This document shows positions 1,532 through 17,645 of a stretch of DNA of 44,555 bases, piece after piece. The DNA comes from Bacteroidales bacterium. Lineage in GTDB: Bacteria > Bacteroidota > Bacteroidia > Bacteroidales > Muribaculaceae. Location: NCBI GenBank assembly GCA_020859845.1, contig JAJBVL010000010.1:1-44555 (forward strand), given 5' to 3'. The position numbers and the translations under genes are program-made. The notes under the pieces were generated by a model. That model searched no databases and was not told where the DNA came from. It saw only the letters and a list, made by a program, of their open reading frames with translations. The first letter of the stretch is position 1; every line of letters starts with the position of its first letter.

Positions 1532-1790
1532 TTTGGCGTAACGATGCCCACAAAGAATAATGTCGCAGTGCAGCGGCCCTCCGACGCGACTTAATCGTCT
1601 CGTGTGTGCCGGAGTGCCGGCATACCAACAGCGGCGGAGGGTCGCCGTACTACAATAATAGCTGCCGCAGCGGGCGTCGTCGTCAGGCGACATCGTAGGT
1701 TGGGCGGCCTCGCCCGACCGCCTAGGCGTTGCTAACCCCAGCGGGGTTGTTTCAAATAGCAGCGGCGTACCTCCACTGCTCATAGCGCGG
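1532..1790. other. Intergenic region with GC-rich hairpins
   Basis: This 259-base gap is strikingly G+C-rich between two A+T-rich genes. It contains facing CCCTCCG/CGGAGGG arms near 1577 and 1636, the dispersed repeat at 1685-1728, and a perfect AACCCC/GGGGTT hairpin at 1734-1748. No credible gene is seen. It may be inserted repeat DNA also serving as terminator between the ATPase and the recombinase, which converge here. Confidence 0.6.
1685..1728 (-). repeat. 44-bp GC-rich dispersed repeat, copy A (left flank of R-M locus)
   Basis: Read on the minus strand, this block differs at two positions from the copy at 10552-10595 and at four from the copy at 10378-10421. Its core GGGCGG...CCGCCC can fold into a hairpin. 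The copies on the other side of the R-M genes are in the opposite orientation. REP-like; no transposase is linked to it. Confidence 0.8.
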
Positions 1791-2714
1791 CTACCTCATA
1801 GACTTTGCCATCCTCTCAATGCAACGCTTCTTCTGCTCCATATTAGGATGAACGTATAGATCGAGGGTGGTTGAGATGTTGGAATGGCCAAGAAGAACGC
1901 TCACTGTTTTATAGTCGCAATTGCTCTCAATACAGCGTGTGGCAAACGAGTGTCGAAGACCGTGGAACTTCAACGGAGGGATCCCCAGTTGCGCCATCAA
2001 CCTCTTGTAGTAGTTGCGGTATGTGCGTGGTTCTGTGGGCGAAGGCTCGTTGGTTATCACGTAATAGTCAGGATTGACGACCTTCATCAGAGGCCGGATG
2101 AGAGCCAATGCATCACGACTCAACGGTATCTCCCTGCAAGAGTTTGTCGTCTTGGGTGTATTAATAACAAGTTCCGTGTGCGTATTGTCCCCATCTATGA
2201 TATAGATACGTTCTATTGTGCGTTGAACCGTCAGAGTGCCTTTATCAAGGCTGATGTCACTCCACTTCAAAGCGCATACCTCCCCTATTCTCAATCCGGT
2301 GGAGAGGCATACAAAGATGCCCAGATTGCGAAACGTGAAGTTGTCTCGAATGTAATCGAGGATTTTCTTGTGGTTAGCCACTGTAAGCACTTCGATGTCA
2401 GGCGTGATAGCCGTTGTGGGATACTTTATATCCCACTCAGCATAATCCAGCCAGCCATTCTTCACACCAAACTTCATCACCATTTTTAGGACGATAAGAA
2501 TGTCCTTCGTGGATTTCACACTTAGGCCCTCCTCCAACTTTGAGAGGACAAACTCTTGAACAGTGCTCTCGGATAGGCCAATGGCACATCCGAACGATGG
2601 CAGAATATGGTTTTTCACTATCAGTGCATAGGCCGCATACGTGGAGGCCTTGACATACTGCCGCTTGTCTGCCAGCCAAGCCACGGCGATGTCCTTAATT
2701 GGTTTGTATTCCAT
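1791..2714 (-). CDS. Tyrosine recombinase, predicted hsdS inversion enzyme
   Basis: About 307 residues, phage-integrase/XerD-like family. The N-terminal core-binding (SAM-like) part includes VKASTYAAYALIVKNHILP. The catalytic set is complete: Arg in TGLRIGEVCALKW, His-x-x-Arg in HGLRHSFATR, His in LLGHSN and the nucleophilic Tyr in TTLDLYVH. I chose the ATG at 2714 (MEYKPIKDIAVAW); an ATG at 2756 or TTG at 2795 would extend it over the edge of the silent hsdS cassette. It sits directly beside the outer end of two tail-to-tail hsdS modules bounded by inverted repeats. In Bacteroides and other bacteria, recombinases in this position invert hsdS segments, so that role is inferred here. Convergent with the ATPase gene. 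Confidence 0.9.
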   Translation of the reverse strand: MEYKPIKDIAVAWLADKRQYVKASTYAAYALIVKNHILPSFGCAIGLSESTVQEFVLSKLEEGLSVKSTKDILIVLKMVMKFGVKNGWLDYAEWDIKYPTTAITPDIEVLTVANHKKILDYIRDNFTFRNLGIFVCLSTGLRIGEVCALKWSDISLDKGTLTVQRTIERIYIIDGDNTHTELVINTPKTTNSCREIPLSRDALALIRPLMKVVNPDYYVITNEPSPTEPRTYRNYYKRLMAQLGIPPLKFHGLRHSFATRCIESNCDYKTVSVLLGHSNISTTLDLYVHPNMEQKKRCIERMAKSMR

Positions 2715-2810
2715 CTTGATATGATTTAGGAGTTGCTTGGAGCAATACTGCCCCATTTCTATATACCTTTCCTCCAAACCATCCTCACTGGGCAACCCTC
2801 ATCAATTCCA

Positions 2811-4031
2811 ATCCTCAATGCCCCTCCTTTGCGCTTCCCGGGCTTCACTGAGCCGTGGGAAAAGGGGACACTTGAAGAATACGGTAAAGTCGTTACTGGC
2901 AATACGCCATCGACATCATGTCAGGAATATTACGGAGGTGATTATCCGTGGGTTTCTCCGTCTGATTTAGGATGCGGAAAAATTATAATGGACACCGCTA
3001 CAAAATTAACGCTGTTGGGGTTCTCAAAGACGCGCTCATTACCAATGGGCAGTGTTTTGGTAACATGTATAGGCTCTACAATTGGAAAAATGGGAATGGC
3101 AGGACGTGAACTATCTACCAACCAGCAAATAAACTCAGTTGTAGTGAATGAAGGCTTTGACAATCAGTTTGTTTACTACAACATAATGAGCGCGTTCCCC
3201 AGATACCTCAAAGAGGTTGCCGTGCAAGCTGTGCCGATACTATCAAAGTCGAGTTTTGAAAAACTTCCGACATGGAAAACTTCTCTTGCCGAACAAAAAC
3301 GAATCGGCAAACTGCTTTCTTTGATAGACGATAGAATAGACACTCAAAGCAAAGTAATTGAGGACTTGAAAAGACTAAAGTCCGCGATTACGGATTTAGT
3401 GTTTTGTTTACCGGATGAGCCTACACCATCTAAAAGACTTGGAGGATTCAGTAATGAATGGAAAGTAGTACGTCTCTCGGATATATGCAAAAGGATACGC
3501 ACTAAGAATACTGGAGAACGTTGTCAATTAGTTCTCACCATTGCGGCACAACATGGACTTGTGGGACAAGAAGATTTCTTTAATAAGTCCGTTGCCAGTG
3601 ATAACTTGGAAGGATATTATCTATTACAGCGTGGAGATTTCGCTTACAACAAAAGCTATTCAGGAGATTATACATGGGGCGCGGTAAAACGCTTAGAACG
3701 ATACGAGCAAGGCGTGTTGTCTCCTTTATACATCTGCTTTAGGCCAGATTTGTCCACTGTGAACGCTGAATATCTGTCCCATTACTTTGAATCAAAGAAA
3801 TGGCATAAAGGTGTTGCTGATATTGCTGGTGAGGGCGCAAGGAATCACGGTTTATTAAACATTTCTGTGGTTGATTATTTCAACACATTACATCGGTTGC
3901 CTTCATTGGAAGAACAAAGGGAGATTGCCAAATGCTTGAATTTCATGCAAGAGAAATTAAAATTAGAGCAAAATATACTGAACCAATTTCTTATTCAGCA
4001 CCATTATCTTCTTCGCCAGATGTTTATATAA
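2811..4031 (+). CDS. hsdS: Silent hsdS cassette (type I specificity subunit lacking its own start)
   Basis: About 406 codons of type I R-M specificity subunit, opposite in strand to the rest of the operon. Homology begins at ILNAPPLRFPGFTEPWEK, matching residues 9 onward of the expressed hsdS. It has two target-recognition domains separated by the helical segment around IDDRIDTQSKVIEDL, and ends LLRQMFI, again as in the expressed copy. The frame is open upstream only from a TTG at 2733 and has no ATG before the homology; that stretch is antisense to the recombinase start. There is no promoter, so it should be unexpressed until inverted. Its first 20 bases (2812-2831) are exactly repeated, inverted, at 5113-5132 in the expressed gene. 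The two genes overlap by 8 bases at their stops. Confidence 0.85.
   Translation: MLNAPPLRFPGFTEPWEKGTLEEYGKVVTGNTPSTSCQEYYGGDYPWVSPSDLGCGKIIMDTATKLTLLGFSKTRSLPMGSVLVTCIGSTIGKMGMAGRELSTNQQINSVVVNEGFDNQFVYYNIMSAFPRYLKEVAVQAVPILSKSSFEKLPTWKTSLAEQKRIGKLLSLIDDRIDTQSKVIEDLKRLKSAITDLVFCLPDEPTPSKRLGGFSNEWKVVRLSDICKRIRTKNTGERCQLVLTIAAQHGLVGQEDFFNKSVASDNLEGYYLLQRGDFAYNKSYSGDYTWGAVKRLERYEQGVLSPLYICFRPDLSTVNAEYLSHYFESKKWHKGVADIAGEGARNHGLLNISVVDYFNTLHRLPSLEEQREIAKCLNFMQEKLKLEQNILNQFLIQHHYLLRQMFI
2812..2831 (+). repeat. Outer inverted repeat of hsdS switch, left copy
   Basis: Twenty bases identical to the reverse complement of 5113-5132. Both copies encode the same frame (LNAPPL), so strand exchange here would join the silent cassette in frame to the start codon of the expressed gene. 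Confidence 0.85.
3350..3362 (+). repeat. Central inverted repeat of hsdS switch, left copy
   Basis: CAAAGTAATTGAG, present as its reverse complement at 4573-4585. Both copies fall in the helical spacer between the two target-recognition domains and in the same frame (KVIE), so exchange here would swap only the second recognition domain. Confidence 0.65.
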
Positions 4032-4050
4032 ACATCTGGCGAAGAAGATA
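4005..4050. repeat. 46-bp perfect palindrome joining the two hsdS 3' ends
   Basis: Every base from 4005 to 4027 pairs with 4028 to 4050. It encodes LLRQMFI-stop in both directions: the plus-strand stop is 4029-4031 and the minus-strand stop 4024-4026. It is the innermost inverted repeat of the switch and may also act as a bidirectional terminator. Confidence 0.9.
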
Positions 4051-5157
4051 TGCCTTTAAATTCAAGAGGCAGCCTAATATTTCCATTTCGCATATTGCTT
4101 TGCGTTCAACCGCCCTTATTGTATCGGCAATACGCTTTTGTTGTACCATTTCAGGACACCATATCTTAGCACGCCCATAGTCCTTAAAATATATATGCGG
4201 AATTGCCATGCCTGTTTTATACGGTTGGAAATTAAAGGCTTTAAGCGCGAAATACAAGTAAGGAAGATGAAAGCCATTTTTAGCCGTAAGATAGTTTAGC
4301 GTACCGATAACAGAGAAATTCCCCTGGGCATAAGATACTGTACCAACACCAGAACCATCTTTTATAATCATCATTGCCTCGCCACTCACCATTGCAGAAT
4401 CTATATAGCCAATTTGACCTGCTGCGCCATAGACAACACATTGACCTGTTTCATGAACTTCACTTTCTTGAAGCGTTGAACTATAACACTCCAGACAATC
4501 GCGAATTGGTATATTAGGCAAGCCTTGTGTAGTAAGGCGTACGGAAATCCCCTTGATTAAAGATTGCAGTTTCTCAATTACTTTGTTTTGGATAGCGATG
4601 CGCTCATTTAGTAATTCGAACATATCGCCAATTTTTTTTCTTTCACCCTTTTGTGGTGGAAAGAAAAATTCAAAAGAGTTTAAGTCTGATGTCGTAATTT
4701 GGTTGATACGGGCACCCATGTTTTCACCGATCTGAGACGTATATCGGCGAGTGCTTAAAAGTGGATGAACGAACTTGCCCTCGGAACTACGATACACCAT
4801 CATAAAAGCTCCAAAAGTATGATTTGTATCGCCTTTATGCAACAATGCGTTTTTACCAATCAAACGCGGACTTCCATTTCTTGCACAAATTAGAATATCT
4901 CCATCACGAGTTACAATTCTTTCTTTGATTGACGTATTAACCCTTACAAGGTCTTGGTAGTCTATCATCCCATCTTTAATGTTTGAAGAACGGAACACTA
5001 TAGTTCCTCCTTCGGATACAACATCTGAAGGTGAATATGTCAAGCCGATTAAGGTTTCACCAAGCTCTCCAAGTGAATGCTTCTCCCAACTTTCCGTGAA
5101 CTCCGGGAATCTCAAAGGAGGGGCATTGAGGACTTTATTGCTATTATCTTTTGCCAT
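4024..5157 (-). CDS. hsdS: Type I R-M specificity subunit HsdS (expressed copy)
   Basis: 377 residues. HsdS sets the DNA target of the type I complex, bringing HsdM (and HsdR) to a bipartite site. The start MAKDNSNKV is unique to this copy; from LNAPPLRFPEFTESWEK on it parallels the silent cassette. The first recognition domain covers about residues 10-165. A helical conserved region, LNERIAIQNKVIEKLQS, lies near 170-190. The second domain follows, then a terminal helical segment ending LLRQMFI. It lies 28 bases downstream of hsdM and is the last gene of the leftward hsdR-GIY-hsdM-hsdS operon. The recognition domains differ from those of the silent cassette, so inversion should change sequence specificity. 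Confidence 0.92.
   Translation of the reverse strand: MAKDNSNKVLNAPPLRFPEFTESWEKHSLGELGETLIGLTYSPSDVVSEGGTIVFRSSNIKDGMIDYQDLVRVNTSIKERIVTRDGDILICARNGSPRLIGKNALLHKGDTNHTFGAFMMVYRSSEGKFVHPLLSTRRYTSQIGENMGARINQITTSDLNSFEFFFPPQKGERKKIGDMFELLNERIAIQNKVIEKLQSLIKGISVRLTTQGLPNIPIRDCLECYSSTLQESEVHETGQCVVYGAAGQIGYIDSAMVSGEAMMIIKDGSGVGTVSYAQGNFSVIGTLNYLTAKNGFHLPYLYFALKAFNFQPYKTGMAIPHIYFKDYGRAKIWCPEMVQQKRIADTIRAVERKAICEMEILGCLLNLKAYLLRQMFI
4573..4585 (-). repeat. Central inverted repeat of hsdS switch, right copy
   Basis: Reverse complement of CAAAGTAATTGAG at 3350-3362, in the spacer helix of the expressed hsdS, same reading frame. Confidence 0.65.
5113..5132 (-). repeat. Outer inverted repeat of hsdS switch, right copy
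   Basis: Perfect partner of 2812-2831, located eight codons after the start of the expressed hsdS. Exchange between the two would invert 2832-5112, leaving the promoter side and the start codon in place. Confidence 0.85.
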
Positions 5158-5185
5158 AACAATTCTTCTTTTTTTGTAGACAAGG

Positions 5186-6739
5186 TTATTTCATTATTCC
5201 CAGTTCACGGAGATAGCCTTCAATCTCTTTGTCAAGGTCGGCTCGTTTAGCCTCCAACTCCTTAATCTCTGCCATTACGGCCTTGATGTCGATAGGCTCT
5301 TCTTCTTCAAAGGTATCGACATAACGAGGGATATTCAGGTTATAGTCGTTGTCGGCCACTTCTTGCAGGGAGGCCAGATGGCTATACTTCTCAATCTCTT
5401 TGCGCTCGCGATAGGTATCAACAATCTTCTTGATGTGATCATCTCGAAGCTTGTTTTGCGTCTTGACTTTTTCAAACTCCTTGCTCGCGTCGATGAAAAG
5501 AATATTGTCATCCTCCTTGCGACACTTCTTCATAACCAAAATACAGGTTGGGATTGAGGTGCCATAGAAGATGTTGGCAGGGAGGCCTATAATGGCGTCT
5601 ATATAGTTTTTCTTCTCGATGAGGAAACGGCGTATTTCTCCCTCGGCATTGCCACGAAACAACACCCCATGAGGGGCCACGCAAGCCATAGTACCTCCCT
5701 CGGCAAGATGATAAATCATGTGAAGAATAAAAGCGTAGTCGGCAGTTTTACGCGGAGCCAATCGCCCAGCCTTGCTGAAACGATCATCGCTCAAGAATTT
5801 GTTGGCAGCGCTCCACTCAGCTGAGAAGGGTGGGTTGGCCACCACGGCATCAAACTGGCGATCGCCAAAAGCATCCGCCTCGAGGGTGTCTCCATTTTCA
5901 ATCGTAAAGTTGGAAAACTTGATGCCATGCAGCAACATATTCATTCGGGCGAGGTTATAAGTGGTAGGATTTTTCTCCTGGCCAAATATCTCATAAGCCT
6001 TACCAGTGTGGGCAGCGCGGATAAGGAGAGAGCCAGAGCCACAAGTGGGGTCGTATACGTTGCGCAAGCGGGTATGGCCTATGGTGACAATTTCAGCCAA
6101 GATTTGGCTAACTTCCTGGGGGGTGTAAAACTCTCCTGCTTTCTTGCCTGCTCCTGCAGCAAACTGCGAAATCATATACTCATAGGCATCTCCAAGAATG
6201 TCGATTTGAGTAGCTTCATCAGCACCAAAGTCAATTCCATTCAAGGCCTTCAGAACATTGGAGATGAGCAAATTCTTATCGTCGGCTGTCTTGCCAAGTT
6301 TTGGGGAGGCAAGGTCGATATCAGAGAATAATCCTCCAAAGTCTTCTTCGCTATCTTGGCCCATAGTGCTGTCCTCGATACGCTTCAAAGAGCGTTCAAG
6401 TTGGGGAAGGATATTCTCATTTCTTCCTATAGCGTCAATTATAGAGGTAAAGAGATATTGCGGTTCGATGAAGTAGCCAATGTTTTCCAGACATTGCTGC
6501 TTTACCTCTTCTTGCAATTCCTCAGCCTCTTCTTGATTGCTTTGCCATAGCTCCTTAAACGTGATTTCATCATCTTCGAGACTCTGATCGGCATACTTCT
6601 CTATTTTCTCCGACAGGTACTTATAGAAGATGAAGCCCAATGAGAAATACATAAACTCATTGGCCGACATATTCCCACGAAGATTATTGGCTACCGCCCA
6701 TAGCTGAGAGCGTAGTTTCTGTTGCAGTTCTTCACTCAT
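5186..6739 (-). CDS. hsdM: Type I R-M DNA methyltransferase HsdM
   Basis: 517 residues, a normal length for HsdM. It methylates adenine N6 using S-adenosylmethionine as part of the HsdM2-HsdS complex. The N-terminal HsdM_N helical domain covers roughly residues 1-140. The methyltransferase domain carries motif I as DPTCGSGSLL (about residue 235) and motif IV as ANPPFSAEW. The C-terminal segment is rich in charged helices. It starts 3 bases after the stop of the GIY-YIG gene and ends 28 bases before hsdS, so the genes are probably co-transcribed from the hsdR promoter. The catalytic motifs are intact, so an active enzyme is expected. Confidence 0.95.
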   Translation of the reverse strand: MSEELQQKLRSQLWAVANNLRGNMSANEFMYFSLGFIFYKYLSEKIEKYADQSLEDDEITFKELWQSNQEEAEELQEEVKQQCLENIGYFIEPQYLFTSIIDAIGRNENILPQLERSLKRIEDSTMGQDSEEDFGGLFSDIDLASPKLGKTADDKNLLISNVLKALNGIDFGADEATQIDILGDAYEYMISQFAAGAGKKAGEFYTPQEVSQILAEIVTIGHTRLRNVYDPTCGSGSLLIRAAHTGKAYEIFGQEKNPTTYNLARMNMLLHGIKFSNFTIENGDTLEADAFGDRQFDAVVANPPFSAEWSAANKFLSDDRFSKAGRLAPRKTADYAFILHMIYHLAEGGTMACVAPHGVLFRGNAEGEIRRFLIEKKNYIDAIIGLPANIFYGTSIPTCILVMKKCRKEDDNILFIDASKEFEKVKTQNKLRDDHIKKIVDTYRERKEIEKYSHLASLQEVADNDYNLNIPRYVDTFEEEEPIDIKAVMAEIKELEAKRADLDKEIEGYLRELGIMK

Positions 6740-6742
6740 GGA

Positions 6743-7447
6743 TTATTCGTTATTTATCTCGTTGTCTTGTGAGTCGGTTTCTTCGCAACCATGTTCTTTC
6801 TGCTTGCGCAGGTCGTCTAAGACAACGTCGTTATATGTAAAATATTTAGCTCCTTGATAGGCTCCCGATGCATTACGTTTTTCCTCTGGCATAAATGTCC
6901 CTACAAAAGGAGATAGTTTATAGATGCGACCTTCAAATTCAACACTATCGTCGGAGGCTACTTTGACTTTTGTATCAGTGGGCGTGAACCTCACGTACTC
7001 GCCTATCTTTATACCTACCATGCTGAATTTGAAACGTGGACGAGTTTTGCCCTTAGGTGGCTTACAGACTGGAGGATTTGCATCCTTCTTAATGGGCTTG
7101 TTGTCTTCATATTCTATAATCTCGGCGTCATCAATAGTCATGGCAATATCATTGAAGATTTCGAGGGCCATTTGCGGTGCTACGTTAAAGAACTCCCTAT
7201 TCTGGCGAATACGGAGGTCGGTAAGGCGGTCAATTGTCTTGTGAACCAATTTCTCCACCTCATTAAACTTCACTGTTTTCATTGTGGCAAAGATTTCAAA
7301 AGGCAGAGGGACAGCAGTGTTGTCCAACTCCTTAGAACGTATATCCACAGGGCGCGCACTTTTCCCTATCTTCACCCAGTCTTCGCGAAAACTTGGATTG
7401 GTGAGGATATATACATAGCCTGGTTCTATTGTCTTTCCTTGTTTCAT
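6743..7447 (-). CDS. GIY-YIG (T5orf172-type) nuclease-like protein embedded in the R-M operon
   Basis: 234 residues from the ATG at 7447, one base after the hsdR stop; an open upstream extension overlaps hsdR and is unlikely to be used. Residues ~9-105 look like a T5orf172/MUG113 domain of the GIY-YIG superfamily: GYVYIL near the start, then WVKIGKS with an Arg in the following helix (ARPVDIRSKEL) and a Glu in REFFNV. The C-terminal half (about 140-220) contains KVKVASDDSVEFEGRIYKLS followed by YQGAKYFTY, resembling the RAMA/DUF4357-type domains found fused to restriction and methylation proteins; that match is by eye. Its position between hsdR and hsdM, with almost no spacers, implies a role linked to the type I system. 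What it does there is unknown. Confidence 0.8.
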   Translation of the reverse strand: MKQGKTIEPGYVYILTNPSFREDWVKIGKSARPVDIRSKELDNTAVPLPFEIFATMKTVKFNEVEKLVHKTIDRLTDLRIRQNREFFNVAPQMALEIFNDIAMTIDDAEIIEYEDNKPIKKDANPPVCKPPKGKTRPRFKFSMVGIKIGEYVRFTPTDTKVKVASDDSVEFEGRIYKLSPFVGTFMPEEKRNASGAYQGAKYFTYNDVVLDDLRKQKEHGCEETDSQDNEINNE

Positions 7448-7448
7448 G

Positions 7449-10268
7449 TTAATCCCAACTAAATGTTCTAATGATATTACGGAGCCTATCAAGAATTCTA
7501 TGGAGAGCACGGCGACGCTTAATAAGCCCAAGATGCTTGTCCTTTAAAGCTTCTTGTATTATTTCGGTAGATTCTTTCCCCGAGAAATCATATTCTCCCA
7601 AGAAACGTGTTACGGTATCAAGAGGCAGTTCTTCTTCGGAAGCTACTCGTTGAATAGCCTTTATCTTTTCAGCACGGACATATTGATTGAGGCGCTCTTC
7701 CAAGTCGGAGGTGCCATCTGCACGATTGCGCCTTACAAAACCTTCTTTATCATTATCGACGTTCTGAAGGATAAAACCATCAATAAGTTGGGCTTTGCTA
7801 CGCAGCTCGGCATCCTTTATCATCGTATCAATGATATCCTTGCGTCTTTCGGCATAATCCTCTGCGTAGGGATCAAGTTGCGCTATAAGCCCCAATATGT
7901 AGGCCACATTAATAACGTCGCTGTGAAGGAGCTCGAGACAGAAGTCGATATCTTCCAAGCCACCATCTTCCCCAGTGTCGTTGCCATTTGCGGGGCCTTC
8001 CGCATGTTGTTCATCAAAGAAAGTGTCGTGAAGATCAAGATACTTGCTACGGAAATCCATATACTGCTGTTCAGTCATAGGGAAGTCCTCATCATCCTCT
8101 CGATAATCCTCGTAGATCTGGATTTCCGAGTGCTTCTTGATGATTTCTCTGAACGCAAGTATAAAATTGCGCTTATCGGTCTCGCTTTGAAGATAGTCTA
8201 CTACATGGGCTTCGGGATAGTGGCGAAGAAATTCTTTGGTCAGTTGTATATATTCTTTCTTTACTGTATTAAAAGCCGGACGGACGATATCTTCTATATT
8301 GTTATTGTTGCTGAAGAGTTTTATAGCCGTATCAACATTGTCCTTCATATCACGGAAGCAGATGATTTTGCCAAAACGCTTCTTCTCGTTAAGCACCCGG
8401 TTGGTACGACTAAAGGCTTGGAGTAAACCATGGTACTCCATATTTTTGTCAACGTAAAGAGTATTGAGTTTCTTTGAGTCGAATCCCGTGAGAAACATCC
8501 CCACTACAAGACACAAATCGAGAGGCTTCTGAGACGGGTCTTTCTTCTTCATGCGCTTGTTGATATCATCATAGTACGCCCTGAAGTTATCCGTAGAGAA
8601 AGCGGTGCCAAACGTATCGTTATAGTCGTCCATGATGGCTTGCAGGTCGTCGGCCTCAGGCATGTGTTCCCCGCTAATAAATCCTCCATTAAGACCTGTC
8701 AATGTATCATCCAAAGGGATGTTTTGCTGATAGGTAAAGATAGCGCCAATGCTTATAGTAGGGCGCAGTTCCTTGAAGATTTTATAATATCTGACAAGAG
8801 TGGGGACGTTCTGCACAGCAAAAAGGGCGTCGAACTCGCCATCATAGGTAGACTTGCGAAAGTTGTTGAGGATAAACTTGGCTATTTCTTTCAGACGGTC
8901 ATCGTCGCCATTATCCACATTGATATTTCCATGATAGTATTCTACAAGAAATCCCAGAACATTCTCGTCAGCTATGGCATCCTTAATGAGATACTTGTGT
9001 AGGCATTCCCCAAATATCTCCTTGGTGGTATGCTTGTCAATAGAATTCTCGGCGAAGATAGGGGTGCCCGTAAATCCGAATATTTGGAGATGATTGAAAA
9101 AATTGACTATGTTCTTATGGCTTTCTCCAAAATGACTACGATGACACTCATCGAATATCATTACTATTCGGCTATCCTTGATGTGCTGAAGTTTTTGGCT
9201 ATACCACGGCCGAGTGACAGCAGCGTTGAGCTTTTGGATTGTTGTGATGATGATGCGGCTGTCGCTTTCCAGTCGCTTGATTAATTCGCTGGTGTTCTCC
9301 GTGTTGTCCACAGCTCCCGGCTCAAATGCTTCATATTCTGATTGAGTTTGCGTATCAAGATCATGACGATCCACCACAAACATTACCTTGTCTACATCGT
9401 CAAGTTCTGCCACAAGTTGGGCTGCTTTAAAAGAGGTTAAGGTCTTACCAGCACCCGTTGTGTGCCATATATATCCATCTTTTCCTGTGTTTTGCACGCA
9501 GTCGAGCACCTTCTCTACTGCGTAATATTGGTAAGGACGCATCACCATCAGACATTTATCGCCTTCGTGAAGCACGATGTATTTGCTCAACATCTTCCCA
9601 AGCACACACTTGTCAAAGAAGTTGGCTGCAAATATTGATAGTTCATTGAAGGGATTGTTGGCAGCGTCAGTCCAATTAAAGGTGAACTTATATCCTTGAT
9701 TAGGATTATTGGCGAAATAACGAGTGTTTACGCCATTGGAAATGACGAATATCTGGATGTAGTCAAAAAGGCCATGAAAAGAAGTCTTGTGGTAGCGTTG
9801 AATCTGGTTGTAGGCTTGCTTCAATTCTACTCCACGACGTTTTAGCTCTATTTGGACCAGAGGCAATCCGTTTACTAATATAGTAACATCATACCTACAA
9901 CGCTTGCGTCCTTCGACTGTGATTTGATTGGCAACTTGAAATTCATTCTGGCACCACTGTTTAGTATTAAGGAATGATACCCAAAGACGGTTGCCATCCT
10001 CTAATTCCAAAGGGTAAAGGTCGCGCAGTTTCTTGGCCTTTTCAAAACGGGAGCCGCCTTCAAGATAAAGCAAAATCTTGTCAAACTCTACATCGGAAAA
10101 ATGCTCTCGGCCATGGTCGGCAAGAGCTTTCCTGTTGTGTATTTCAAGTTGTTTCTTGAAATTCTCTTTGAGATTGGATTCCTCTTTGAGAGTTACGTAT
10201 TCATAGCTCATCTGTTGAAGAGTATGAATAAGTGCGTTTTCAAGTGCAGCTTCGCTTTGGGTGGGCAT
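7449..10268 (-). CDS. hsdR: Type I restriction endonuclease/translocase subunit HsdR
   Basis: 939 residues, first gene of the leftward R-M operon. HsdR supplies ATP-driven DNA translocation and cleavage of unmethylated DNA. The N-terminal HSDR_N nuclease domain has the PD-(D/E)XK signature as RYDVTILVNG...VQIELKRRG (about residues 123-146). The superfamily 2 helicase domains follow: Walker A TTGAGKT near residue 270, motif II MIFDECHRSH near 370, and the later motif VGMFLTGFDSKKLNTLYVDK. The C-terminal part is helical and charged, as in EcoR124I-like subunits. The ATG at 10268 lies about 45 bases beyond a good -7 element. All expected catalytic motifs are present. Confidence 0.95.
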   Translation of the reverse strand: MPTQSEAALENALIHTLQQMSYEYVTLKEESNLKENFKKQLEIHNRKALADHGREHFSDVEFDKILLYLEGGSRFEKAKKLRDLYPLELEDGNRLWVSFLNTKQWCQNEFQVANQITVEGRKRCRYDVTILVNGLPLVQIELKRRGVELKQAYNQIQRYHKTSFHGLFDYIQIFVISNGVNTRYFANNPNQGYKFTFNWTDAANNPFNELSIFAANFFDKCVLGKMLSKYIVLHEGDKCLMVMRPYQYYAVEKVLDCVQNTGKDGYIWHTTGAGKTLTSFKAAQLVAELDDVDKVMFVVDRHDLDTQTQSEYEAFEPGAVDNTENTSELIKRLESDSRIIITTIQKLNAAVTRPWYSQKLQHIKDSRIVMIFDECHRSHFGESHKNIVNFFNHLQIFGFTGTPIFAENSIDKHTTKEIFGECLHKYLIKDAIADENVLGFLVEYYHGNINVDNGDDDRLKEIAKFILNNFRKSTYDGEFDALFAVQNVPTLVRYYKIFKELRPTISIGAIFTYQQNIPLDDTLTGLNGGFISGEHMPEADDLQAIMDDYNDTFGTAFSTDNFRAYYDDINKRMKKKDPSQKPLDLCLVVGMFLTGFDSKKLNTLYVDKNMEYHGLLQAFSRTNRVLNEKKRFGKIICFRDMKDNVDTAIKLFSNNNNIEDIVRPAFNTVKKEYIQLTKEFLRHYPEAHVVDYLQSETDKRNFILAFREIIKKHSEIQIYEDYREDDEDFPMTEQQYMDFRSKYLDLHDTFFDEQHAEGPANGNDTGEDGGLEDIDFCLELLHSDVINVAYILGLIAQLDPYAEDYAERRKDIIDTMIKDAELRSKAQLIDGFILQNVDNDKEGFVRRNRADGTSDLEERLNQYVRAEKIKAIQRVASEEELPLDTVTRFLGEYDFSGKESTEIIQEALKDKHLGLIKRRRALHRILDRLRNIIRTFSWD

Positions 10269-10311: not shown

Positions 10312-10319
10312 CAAAGGTA
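10312..10319 (-). promoter_or_regulatory. -7 element of the hsdR operon promoter
   Basis: On the minus strand this reads TACCTTTG, an exact TAnnTTTG match, giving a predicted leader of about 37 bases before the hsdR ATG. The surrounding 12-mer is the same as at 81-92. No strong -33 box is visible. Confidence 0.55.
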
Positions 10320-10377
10320 GTAAAAAGCCGCGAGTTGACAGCCCTTTCTGCAAAAATTTTCATGATGAGAATAGACA

Positions 10378-10421
10378 CGCCTGGGCGGTCGGGCGAGGCC
10401 GCCCCACCTACAATGTCGCCC
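10378..10421 (+). repeat. 44-bp GC-rich dispersed repeat, copy B
   Basis: Two differences from copy C. Orientation opposite to copy A at 1685-1728. Core GGGCGG...CCGCCC hairpin. Confidence 0.85.
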
Positions 10422-10445
10422 GACGTGGCCCGGAGGCTATGTAGT

Positions 10446-10522: not shown

Positions 10523-10551
10523 AGAGTGGTGCCCAAGAGAAAAGTTAGCAT

Positions 10552-10595
10552 CGCCTGGGCGGTCGGGCGAGGCCGCCCAACCTACAATGTCGCCT
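10552..10595 (+). repeat. 44-bp GC-rich dispersed repeat, copy C
   Basis: Same orientation as copy B, 174 bases downstream of it. Closest of the two to copy A (two differences in 44). Confidence 0.85.
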
Positions 10596-10703
10596 AACGG
10601 CCATCCGGATGGAATCCGTGTGCATCCATAAGAATTCCGTGGTTCGGGGGTGGGAGCACGCGAGGGCGCCGTGCTCTACGATGAGTGGGCGCCCTGCGGT
10701 GGA

Positions 10704-16679: not shown

Positions 16680-17594
16680 TCAAAGTAGGTCCTGCACTTC
16701 GTTTATACTAAGGCCAGTATATTTAGCCACAATCTCTTCGGAAAGTCCATCGCCAAGCATTAGCTTTGCCATCTCTTTTTTCCCCTCGGCAATCCCTTCC
16801 AAACGGCCCTCGGCTCGTCCCTCGGCTCGTCCCTCGGCTCTGCCTTCGGCTCTGCCCTCAAGGCGCCCTTCTCCACGGGCGGTCTCTATATTGTCTTGGA
16901 GAATTACGGCATTGTTAAGATGGGCCTCATAGCGACGCTTTTCGGCGTCGTTCATGTGTTCAAACAGCATTATCTCTTTTGCTTCAGCCAGTCCAGGAGC
17001 CTTTGGATTATCAGCTATACGCTCATTTTTCAAGAAATCCAGCCATTCCTCAAGAGGCGTGGTGGCCACCTTATTAAATTCGTTCACCTTCAGAATATAA
17101 TACTCTGGAAAGAGATTGCTCACAGCATCGGTATCAAACTTCTGACGCTGAAAAGGAGATAAGGACAGGAGTTCGTTGGTGTGTATACCTCTAAACTCCG
17201 TAGTGCCACGATACACTGTATCCGTCCCGCTGCCAAGAGGGAAATAAACGATGTTGATGCTATAAATCTTTTGGATATCGTGGTATTTGCCGCCTCGGCG
17301 CATATATTGAGTCACCAACTTAGAGGTGCCAAAGAGTATACGCTGAAAATACGCAAATTCACTCTCATTTTGCACTTCGATAATATACTTGGCTCCTGAG
17401 GTGTCGAGCGCCAGGATGTCAACACGGTTTTGCTTGTCGTCCTCGTCGTCTTGATTGCTTTCGCTTTCGAGAAGGTGTTCTATCTTTATTGTCTTGCCCA
17501 AAAGCGTAGAAATCAATCCCTCCAACACAGCAAAGTTGGCTTTGTTGCGTAGGAGTTTCTTCATGGCCCAATCAAATCGAATGTATCTCTTCAT
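16680..17594 (-). CDS. Rpn-family PD-(D/E)XK nuclease (transposase-31-like)
   Basis: 304 residues from ATG at 17594 (MKRYIRFDWAMKKLLRNK); the longer open frame from 17627 begins upstream of the predicted promoter. Rpn/TIGR01784 proteins are recombination-promoting nucleases. The nuclease core is RVDILALDTSGAKYIIEVQ, with the D...ExQ variant usual in this family. After the core comes a Gly-Arg-Ala-Glu tandem repeat (GRAE units, about residues 242-265), then a short C-terminal SxEEIVAKYTGLSINEVQ helix pair typical of the family. The repeat is encoded by 12-base units, so its copy number may vary. It has its own promoter and converges on pepD. Confidence 0.88.
   Translation of the reverse strand: MKRYIRFDWAMKKLLRNKANFAVLEGLISTLLGKTIKIEHLLESESNQDDEDDKQNRVDILALDTSGAKYIIEVQNESEFAYFQRILFGTSKLVTQYMRRGGKYHDIQKIYSINIVYFPLGSGTDTVYRGTTEFRGIHTNELLSLSPFQRQKFDTDAVSNLFPEYYILKVNEFNKVATTPLEEWLDFLKNERIADNPKAPGLAEAKEIMLFEHMNDAEKRRYEAHLNNAVILQDNIETARGEGRLEGRAEGRAEGRAEGRAEGRLEGIAEGKKEMAKLMLGDGLSEEIVAKYTGLSINEVQDLL
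16802..16871 (-). repeat. 12-base tandem repeat encoding GRAE units
   Basis: About five to six in-frame 12-base units of the type (minus strand) GGCCGAGCCGAG encode GRAEGRAE... within the Rpn nuclease. Copies gained or lost keep the frame. Confidence 0.8.
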
Positions 17595-17614
17595 AATCTT
17601 AATAGGTCTTTTTG

Positions 17615-17645
17615 CAAAGATAAGCAATCCTCGGGATATTTACAA
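17615..17645 (-). promoter_or_regulatory. Promoter of the Rpn nuclease gene
   Basis: Minus strand: TTG at 17643-17645, 20-base spacer, TATCTTTG at 17615-17622. Predicted leader of about 15 bases to the ATG at 17594. Confidence 0.65.

Follow-up and report, generated by a model that had tools for sequence, protein, structure and literature searches.

Two hsdS genes, together with an adjacent tyrosine recombinase gene, very probably constitute an invertible switch of specificity for a complete type I restriction-modification (R-M) system in the 44,555-nucleotide stretch of Bacteroidales DNA analysed here (referred to as the window), which is contig 65 of a 2.92-Mb assembly in 112 contigs. This reading is based on features present in the DNA itself, namely the repeats, the reading frame, the uninterrupted genes, the residues taken to be catalytic in the recombinase, and a like arrangement in relatives. 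The switch probably has two states and possibly four.

Organization of the restriction locus and its inverted repeat

The type I R-M set was found to be complete at the locus, with hsdR, hsdM and hsdS each recognized by Pfam, TIGRFAM or PADLOC profile matches. On the minus strand, hsdR (7449..10268; TIGR00348, 449.9 bits with a cut-off of 284.55; PADLOC REase_I) and hsdM (5186..6739; TIGR00497, 464.3 bits with a cut-off of 242.75) both scored far over the curated cut-offs, and between them lies a T5orf172-type gene (6743..7447, minus strand; Pfam T5orf172, E 4.9e-13; PADLOC PDC-S57). The hsdS gene in the expressed position (4024..5157, minus strand; Pfam Methylase_S, E 9.3e-15; PADLOC Specificity_I, E 1.4e-42) starts 28 bp past hsdM. 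A second hsdS body occupies the silent position on the plus strand (2814..4031, from profile matches and a start-codon scan), with its first ATG not before 2988. When scanned as an ORF of 2733-4031, it matched PADLOC Specificity_I with E 1.1e-81 and Pfam Methylase_S with E 1.3e-22. The two hsdS genes lie on opposite strands, tail to tail, and have different recognition domains, with different best database matches. Solved-structure matches of both recognition proteins were type I specificity subunits and one entry named methyltransferase subunit.

A perfect 20-bp inverted repeat, TCCTCAATGCCCCTCCTTTG, was identical at 2812..2831 on the plus strand, on the silent side, and at 5113..5132 on the minus strand, in codons 9-15 of the expressed hsdS. 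These two copies are the predicted 5' crossover repeats, and in both hsdS genes they are read in the same frame as CTC AAT GCC CCT CCT TTG (LNAPPL). In 500 order-2 Markov sequences of 2501-5500, with a spacer of at least 300 bp, the longest exact inverted repeat was no longer than 17 bp (an earlier set of 200 gave no more than 16 bp). Chance was ruled out as the source of the repeat because none of the 500 simulations reached its length. A genome-wide repeat was also ruled out, since only the two copies were present and no third was found in the 2.92-Mb assembly at three or fewer mismatches. Past the 20 bp, the two hsdS copies remained similar without matching exactly (78% over 67 nt).

The predicted invertible segment, 2832..5112, was then inverted in silico. 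The frame was kept and the left gene was joined to MAKDNSNKV of the expressed gene, giving an HsdS product that starts with MAKDNSNKVLNAPPLRFPGF (also written MAKDNSNKVLNAPPLRFPGFTEPWEK) and extends over 414 aa up to the stop codon, and the body of the present expressed gene was left without a leader as the new silent body. Thus, the tail-to-tail pair beside a tyrosine recombinase, the repeat with its shared frame and the in-frame junction, all of which had been put forward in the initial annotation, were reproduced by the ORFs, the profile matches, the exact repeat match and the inversion. We propose that hsdR, hsdM and the hsdS starting at 5157 would be transcribed together and that the recombinase would act on the 20-bp repeats, flipping the segment between them so that either hsdS could come to stand behind the only start codon. 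In the inverted state, HsdM and HsdR would be combined with a different recognition subunit, and methylation and cutting would change together.

The left gene had also been described as having neither an ATG nor a promoter. The first part stood, as no ATG was present in its frame from the in-frame stop at 2727 to 2988. It should be read as the lack of a usual start codon only, because two in-frame TTG codons are present, at 2733 and 2829. The second part is unproven, as the promoter scans were weak. TAnnTTTG is a motif of Bacteroides promoters; it had no match on the plus strand between 92 and 8440, and a match to it upstream of hsdR on the minus strand, TACCTTTG at 10312..10319, is a possible -7 element of an operon promoter. 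A sigma-70-type scan gave no plus-strand site in 1562-3591 and overall fewer sites than were found in shuffles (10 vs 17.1), which makes it uninformative, and a stricter two-part promoter pattern gave no match near the locus. The promoter evidence is weak for both the expressed and the silent side. Of the two parts, the loss of a usual start codon on the silent side has better support than a missing promoter.

Other features were observed in and around the locus. A 46-bp perfect palindrome (an inverted repeat with 23 nt per arm and no spacer) is located at 4005..4050, where the hsdS 3' ends overlap; it may be a terminator or a trace of duplication. An ATPase gene (56-1531; PADLOC candidate family PDC-S27, E 5e-184) adjoins the locus. 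A GC-rich REP-like repeat is present on both flanks of the restriction locus (1681-1736, 10372-10425 and 10544-10599), and its 22-nt core has 19 genomic copies at three or fewer mismatches. The protein encoded at 16680-17627 contains a run of EGRA-type repeats in its C-terminal part.

The recombinase and its relatives

The tyrosine recombinase gene (1791..2795, minus strand; Pfam Phage_integrase, E 3.9e-30, and Phage_int_SAM_3) likely starts at the ATG at 2714, which is residue 28 of the ORF, and the matches of its relatives begin at residues 12-33. Residues R169, K215, H278, R281, H304 and Y314, which by their motifs we take to be the catalytic residues, were invariant in 81 of 81 aligned sequences, the window included. 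The database matches of the recombinase were mostly integrases and Xer proteins. A scan of GTDB species genomes gave 188 relatives, and the best 80 of the 188 (61-76% identical; loci L036-L115) were kept. Of these 80 loci, 41 extend over 2.5 kb upstream of the recombinase. In 35 of the 41, hsdS genes were found on both strands of that region, and on this ground an ordinary phage integrase was ruled out. The pair was absent in the other six (L073, L081, L088, L101, L103 and L107). The layout of the window recurs, for example, in B. fragilis Q1F2 (L094) and in P. vulgatus ATCC 8482 (L055).

In the remaining 39 of the 80 loci, the contig or sequence stretch stops less than 2.5 kb upstream of the recombinase, and in 29 of them less than 1 kb; these early ends may be assembly breaks in repeated, mixed or invertible DNA. 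A recombinase match at E 1e-40 or better was present in 45 of 397 genomes of the family, the window's own counted. Within the same genus, no hsdS was found by BLAST in the stretch flanking three recombinases of 42-49% identity (L117-L119), and the contig of a relative with 73% identity starts inside the gene. A relative of the T5orf172-type gene was found directly before hsdM in five loci (L037, L065, L076, L078 and L079).

The copies could also have been matched by RecA-dependent gene conversion or by occasional homologous recombination, without any part played by the adjacent recombinase. A repeat of 20 bp is short for RecA, and a recombinase with conserved catalytic residues adjoins the hsdS pair in the great majority of the related loci in which the upstream region could be seen, and both points argue against this route. 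In its favor, the title of a study of pneumococcal spnIII describes the recombination there as not depending on any site-specific recombinase known in pneumococci (PMC6620402). On balance, we regard matching without the adjacent recombinase as very improbable, and inversion by that recombinase is the reading followed below.

Matched sites in the paired hsdS genes

The 5' ends of paired hsdS genes were compared across loci. The locus set comprised 85 loci (84 relatives and the window; L120-L147 are outside it), of which 40 (39 relatives plus the window) carried an hsdS gene on each strand, one of them adjoining the recombinase. At each locus, the first plus-strand hsdS was compared with the minus-strand hsdS next to the recombinase. 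A common inverted repeat of at least 19 bp was found at the 5' ends in 31 of the 40 loci, window included. The longest repeat was shorter than 19 bp in the other nine, and in five of these nine the chosen plus-strand ORF was shorter than 800 bp. The 5' matched repeats of L102 and L109, at 121 and 96 nt, were far above those of the rest of the set.

When the 34 of 40 loci that were alignable on the LRF motif were placed in register, the identity between the two copies from -12 to +8 was 0.95 within a locus compared to 0.77 between loci, and from 0 to +15 and +15 to +30 it was 0.94 and 0.86 within compared to 0.78 and 0.74 between, respectively; none of 5000 permutations reached the within-locus value in any of the three intervals. 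The same was true from -25 to -13 (0.48 within and 0.38 between, 0 of 5000). Further upstream, from -45 to -26, the values were 0.39 and 0.35, with 44 of 5000 permutations reaching the within-locus value, and from +30 to +60 they were 0.44 and 0.42, with 612 of 5000. At third codon positions, identity was 0.92 within and 0.66 between loci from -12 to +8 (0 of 5000), 0.77 and 0.54 from +9 to +30 (0 of 5000), and 0.33 and 0.32 beyond +30 (1885 of 5000). Matching runs of at least 20 occurred in a fraction of 0.06 of 1122 between-locus comparisons. These identities show that the match is local, peaks at the site and is lost 30 nt downstream, and that its spelling is locus-specific. Such a local match within a locus would be the expected product of recombination between the two copies, and gene conversion would look alike. 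The invertible hsdS switch suggested by the initial annotation is supported as a prediction by these 34 loci.

The identities of the window's own two copies, from the -45 to -26 interval through the +30 to +60 interval in order, were 0.25, 0.62, 0.90, 0.73, 0.67 and 0.63. Past the repeat they were below the between-locus mean (0.73 vs 0.78 from 0 to +15, and 0.67 vs 0.74 from +15 to +30), indicating that the window's match stops where the 20-bp repeat does and spans less sequence than that of most relatives. This counts against the switch, as do the shorter repeats in nine of the 40 loci, the six related loci that lack the hsdS pair, and the three same-genus recombinases with no hsdS found nearby. 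Placed in register against the opposite copies of 33 other loci, the window copies never gave runs of more than 18 nt.

These comparisons bear on whether the left hsdS is instead a dead relic of a duplication, in which the repeat was kept by a conserved N-terminal motif of HsdS and no inversion occurs. The conservation of LRFPEF-type motifs from locus to locus would fit such a relic, and the conserved protein motif accounts for part of the repeat similarity. However, the within-locus match at the site exceeded the between-locus match even at third codon positions and showed no excess 30-60 nt downstream, neither window copy matched the opposite copies of other loci over the length of the repeat, and the silent frame is still open over 405 codons. 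A dead relic is therefore considered improbable, and the switch remains the preferred reading.

In relatives, the copies also match at a second site, which lies between the recognition domains. A central motif was present in both copies in 22 of the 40 loci, and one was dropped for an N, leaving 21. At this site, 13 nt were exact within the locus in 15 of the 21, compared to 0.248 between loci (0 of 5000 permutations). A control region far upstream showed no difference (0.56 vs 0.56, 2721 of 5000), and small excesses were seen in the first half of the motif (0.70 vs 0.66, 93 of 5000) and far downstream (0.51 vs 0.46, 134 of 5000). In the register of this family site, the window contains a possible central crossover repeat, CAAAGTAATTGAG, in the KVIE codons of the silent gene (3350..3362, plus strand) and in the expressed gene (4573..4585, minus strand). 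It is present in both window hsdS genes, and none of the 40 copies at the other loci is spelled alike. The window's central match is 13 bp, a match of at least 13 bp arose in 38 of 500 simulations, and few bases of the site are free to vary. A match of just 13 bp makes two states likely and four possible.

If the shorter central site recombines too, four HsdS proteins rather than two may be formed. We tentatively suggest, as a model that is somewhat more doubtful than not, that the hsdS recombinases of Bacteroidales use two in-frame sites, one at the 5' end and one between the recognition domains, made of matched pairs spelled privately in each locus. The window would then be a four-state system whose outer 20-bp site is strong and whose central 13-bp site is weak, and a single recombinase would swap whole genes often and half genes rarely. 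Half-length hsdS cassettes were observed between the outer hsdS genes in L036, L040, L051, L055 and L078. They start near an SLIKG-like motif and apparently encode the second recognition domain alone.

Database forms, known shufflons and predicted consequences

The inverted form of the locus was not found among the listed protein database matches to the left body and the right protein, and this counts in favor of a left gene that is dead and does not invert. Within the best 120 of 7983 matches, the left body had a single near-identical match, P0001 (2 member sequences, 3 contigs), and the next best was 67%. All 347 residues of P0001 agree with the left body, and the protein begins at an internal Met, which would be expected of the silent form. 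The closest database match of the right HsdS, among the matches listed, was 66%. No match to the left body or to the 20-mer was found in viral contigs, and plasmids gave partial matches of 67-70% in five records.

The central motif was present in 228 of 240 listed database proteins, which were used as the HsdS set. Seven of the 12 short-leader proteins among these 228 shared at least 95% of the first domain, measured over 140 ungapped residues, with a protein having a leader of at least 8 residues; P0003 (short leader) and P0002 (long leader), whose first domains are identical, are an example. These short leaders are of the type that silent-position genes of relatives show (MGNVPN in L037; MSDVPH in L078 and L082). 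Among the other 119 listed left-gene matches (best 120 of 7983), 48 had a leader of at least 8 residues and 71 did not. Such pairs show both contexts for the class, though not for this locus, and miscalled starts or contig ends can also drop a leader. Pairs with the same second and a different first recognition domain numbered 334 at a lenient cut-off and 273, among 71 proteins, at a strict one, and relative to the central motif the break in the strict pairs was located at residues -8 to +3. Pairs with the same first and a different second domain numbered 358 at the lenient and two at the strict cut-off; because there were only two strict pairs, the 358 are not relied on. The pairs with a shared second domain were drawn from the matches listed for the window's own HsdS proteins, and they do not count as independent.

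The predicted switch belongs with the hsdS shufflons of Bacteroidales, such as shufflon BB of Bacteroides fragilis; the kind is known and this locus is new to it. No paper title on this locus was found in the literature searched, which leaves most subscription papers outside and does not prove that none exists. Porphyromonas gingivalis and Prevotella intermedia also belong to the Bacteroidales. A B. fragilis phase-variable R-M system was reportedly the subject of work in NAR in 2020, and gene-altering programmed inversions are said to have been treated there in 2023. Inverting hsdS loci are an established class, as presented in the available portions of several reports (PMC7394358, PMC5903667, PMC11868660, PMC5690328, PMC11892184, PMC3090145), and the initial annotation had named this class correctly for Bacteroides and streptococci.

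In the portions of PMC3090145 that were available, shufflon BB of B. fragilis NCTC 9343 (BF1839-1842; BF638R_1146-1149 in 638R) is described with hsdS genes and inverted repeats, and with a tyrosine integrase gene directly beside the last hsdS, as in the window. By our own translation, a matched repeat there is in the central LIDERIATQNKI region, comparable to the central match of the window. In contrast to the four repeat sets and eight HsdS combinations given for NCTC 9343 (PMC3090145), the window has two full hsdS genes, one 20-bp pair and the 13-bp central match. According to excerpts of a REBASE survey (PMC7394358), inverting type I loci such as those of Streptococcus suis and S. pneumoniae (SpnD39III) have duplicated variable hsdS genes, as here, with one repeat ahead of the first recognition domain and another separating it from the second, and a recombinase gene at some; the organisms and repeats are other than the window's. 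The same excerpts state that only 100% matches were accepted, longer than the lengths known for homologous recombination, and that P. gingivalis has multiple variable hsdS genes (PMC7394358). Invertons of group 145, reported from a defined community of gut bacteria, in the text available overlap hsdS genes and lie near tyrosine recombinases (PMC11892184); they and the phase-variable type I systems of P. gingivalis and P. intermedia (PMC5690328, in part) resemble the window in their description.

If the segment inverts, one clone would be a mixture of cells differing in the DNA sequences they mark and cut, the entry of phages and plasmids would be altered, and gene expression may change. As the restriction subunit looks intact, the question arises of how cells live through a switch in specificity. 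The loci gathered here also make it testable which part of the site is needed by the recombinase and which part must only match its partner.
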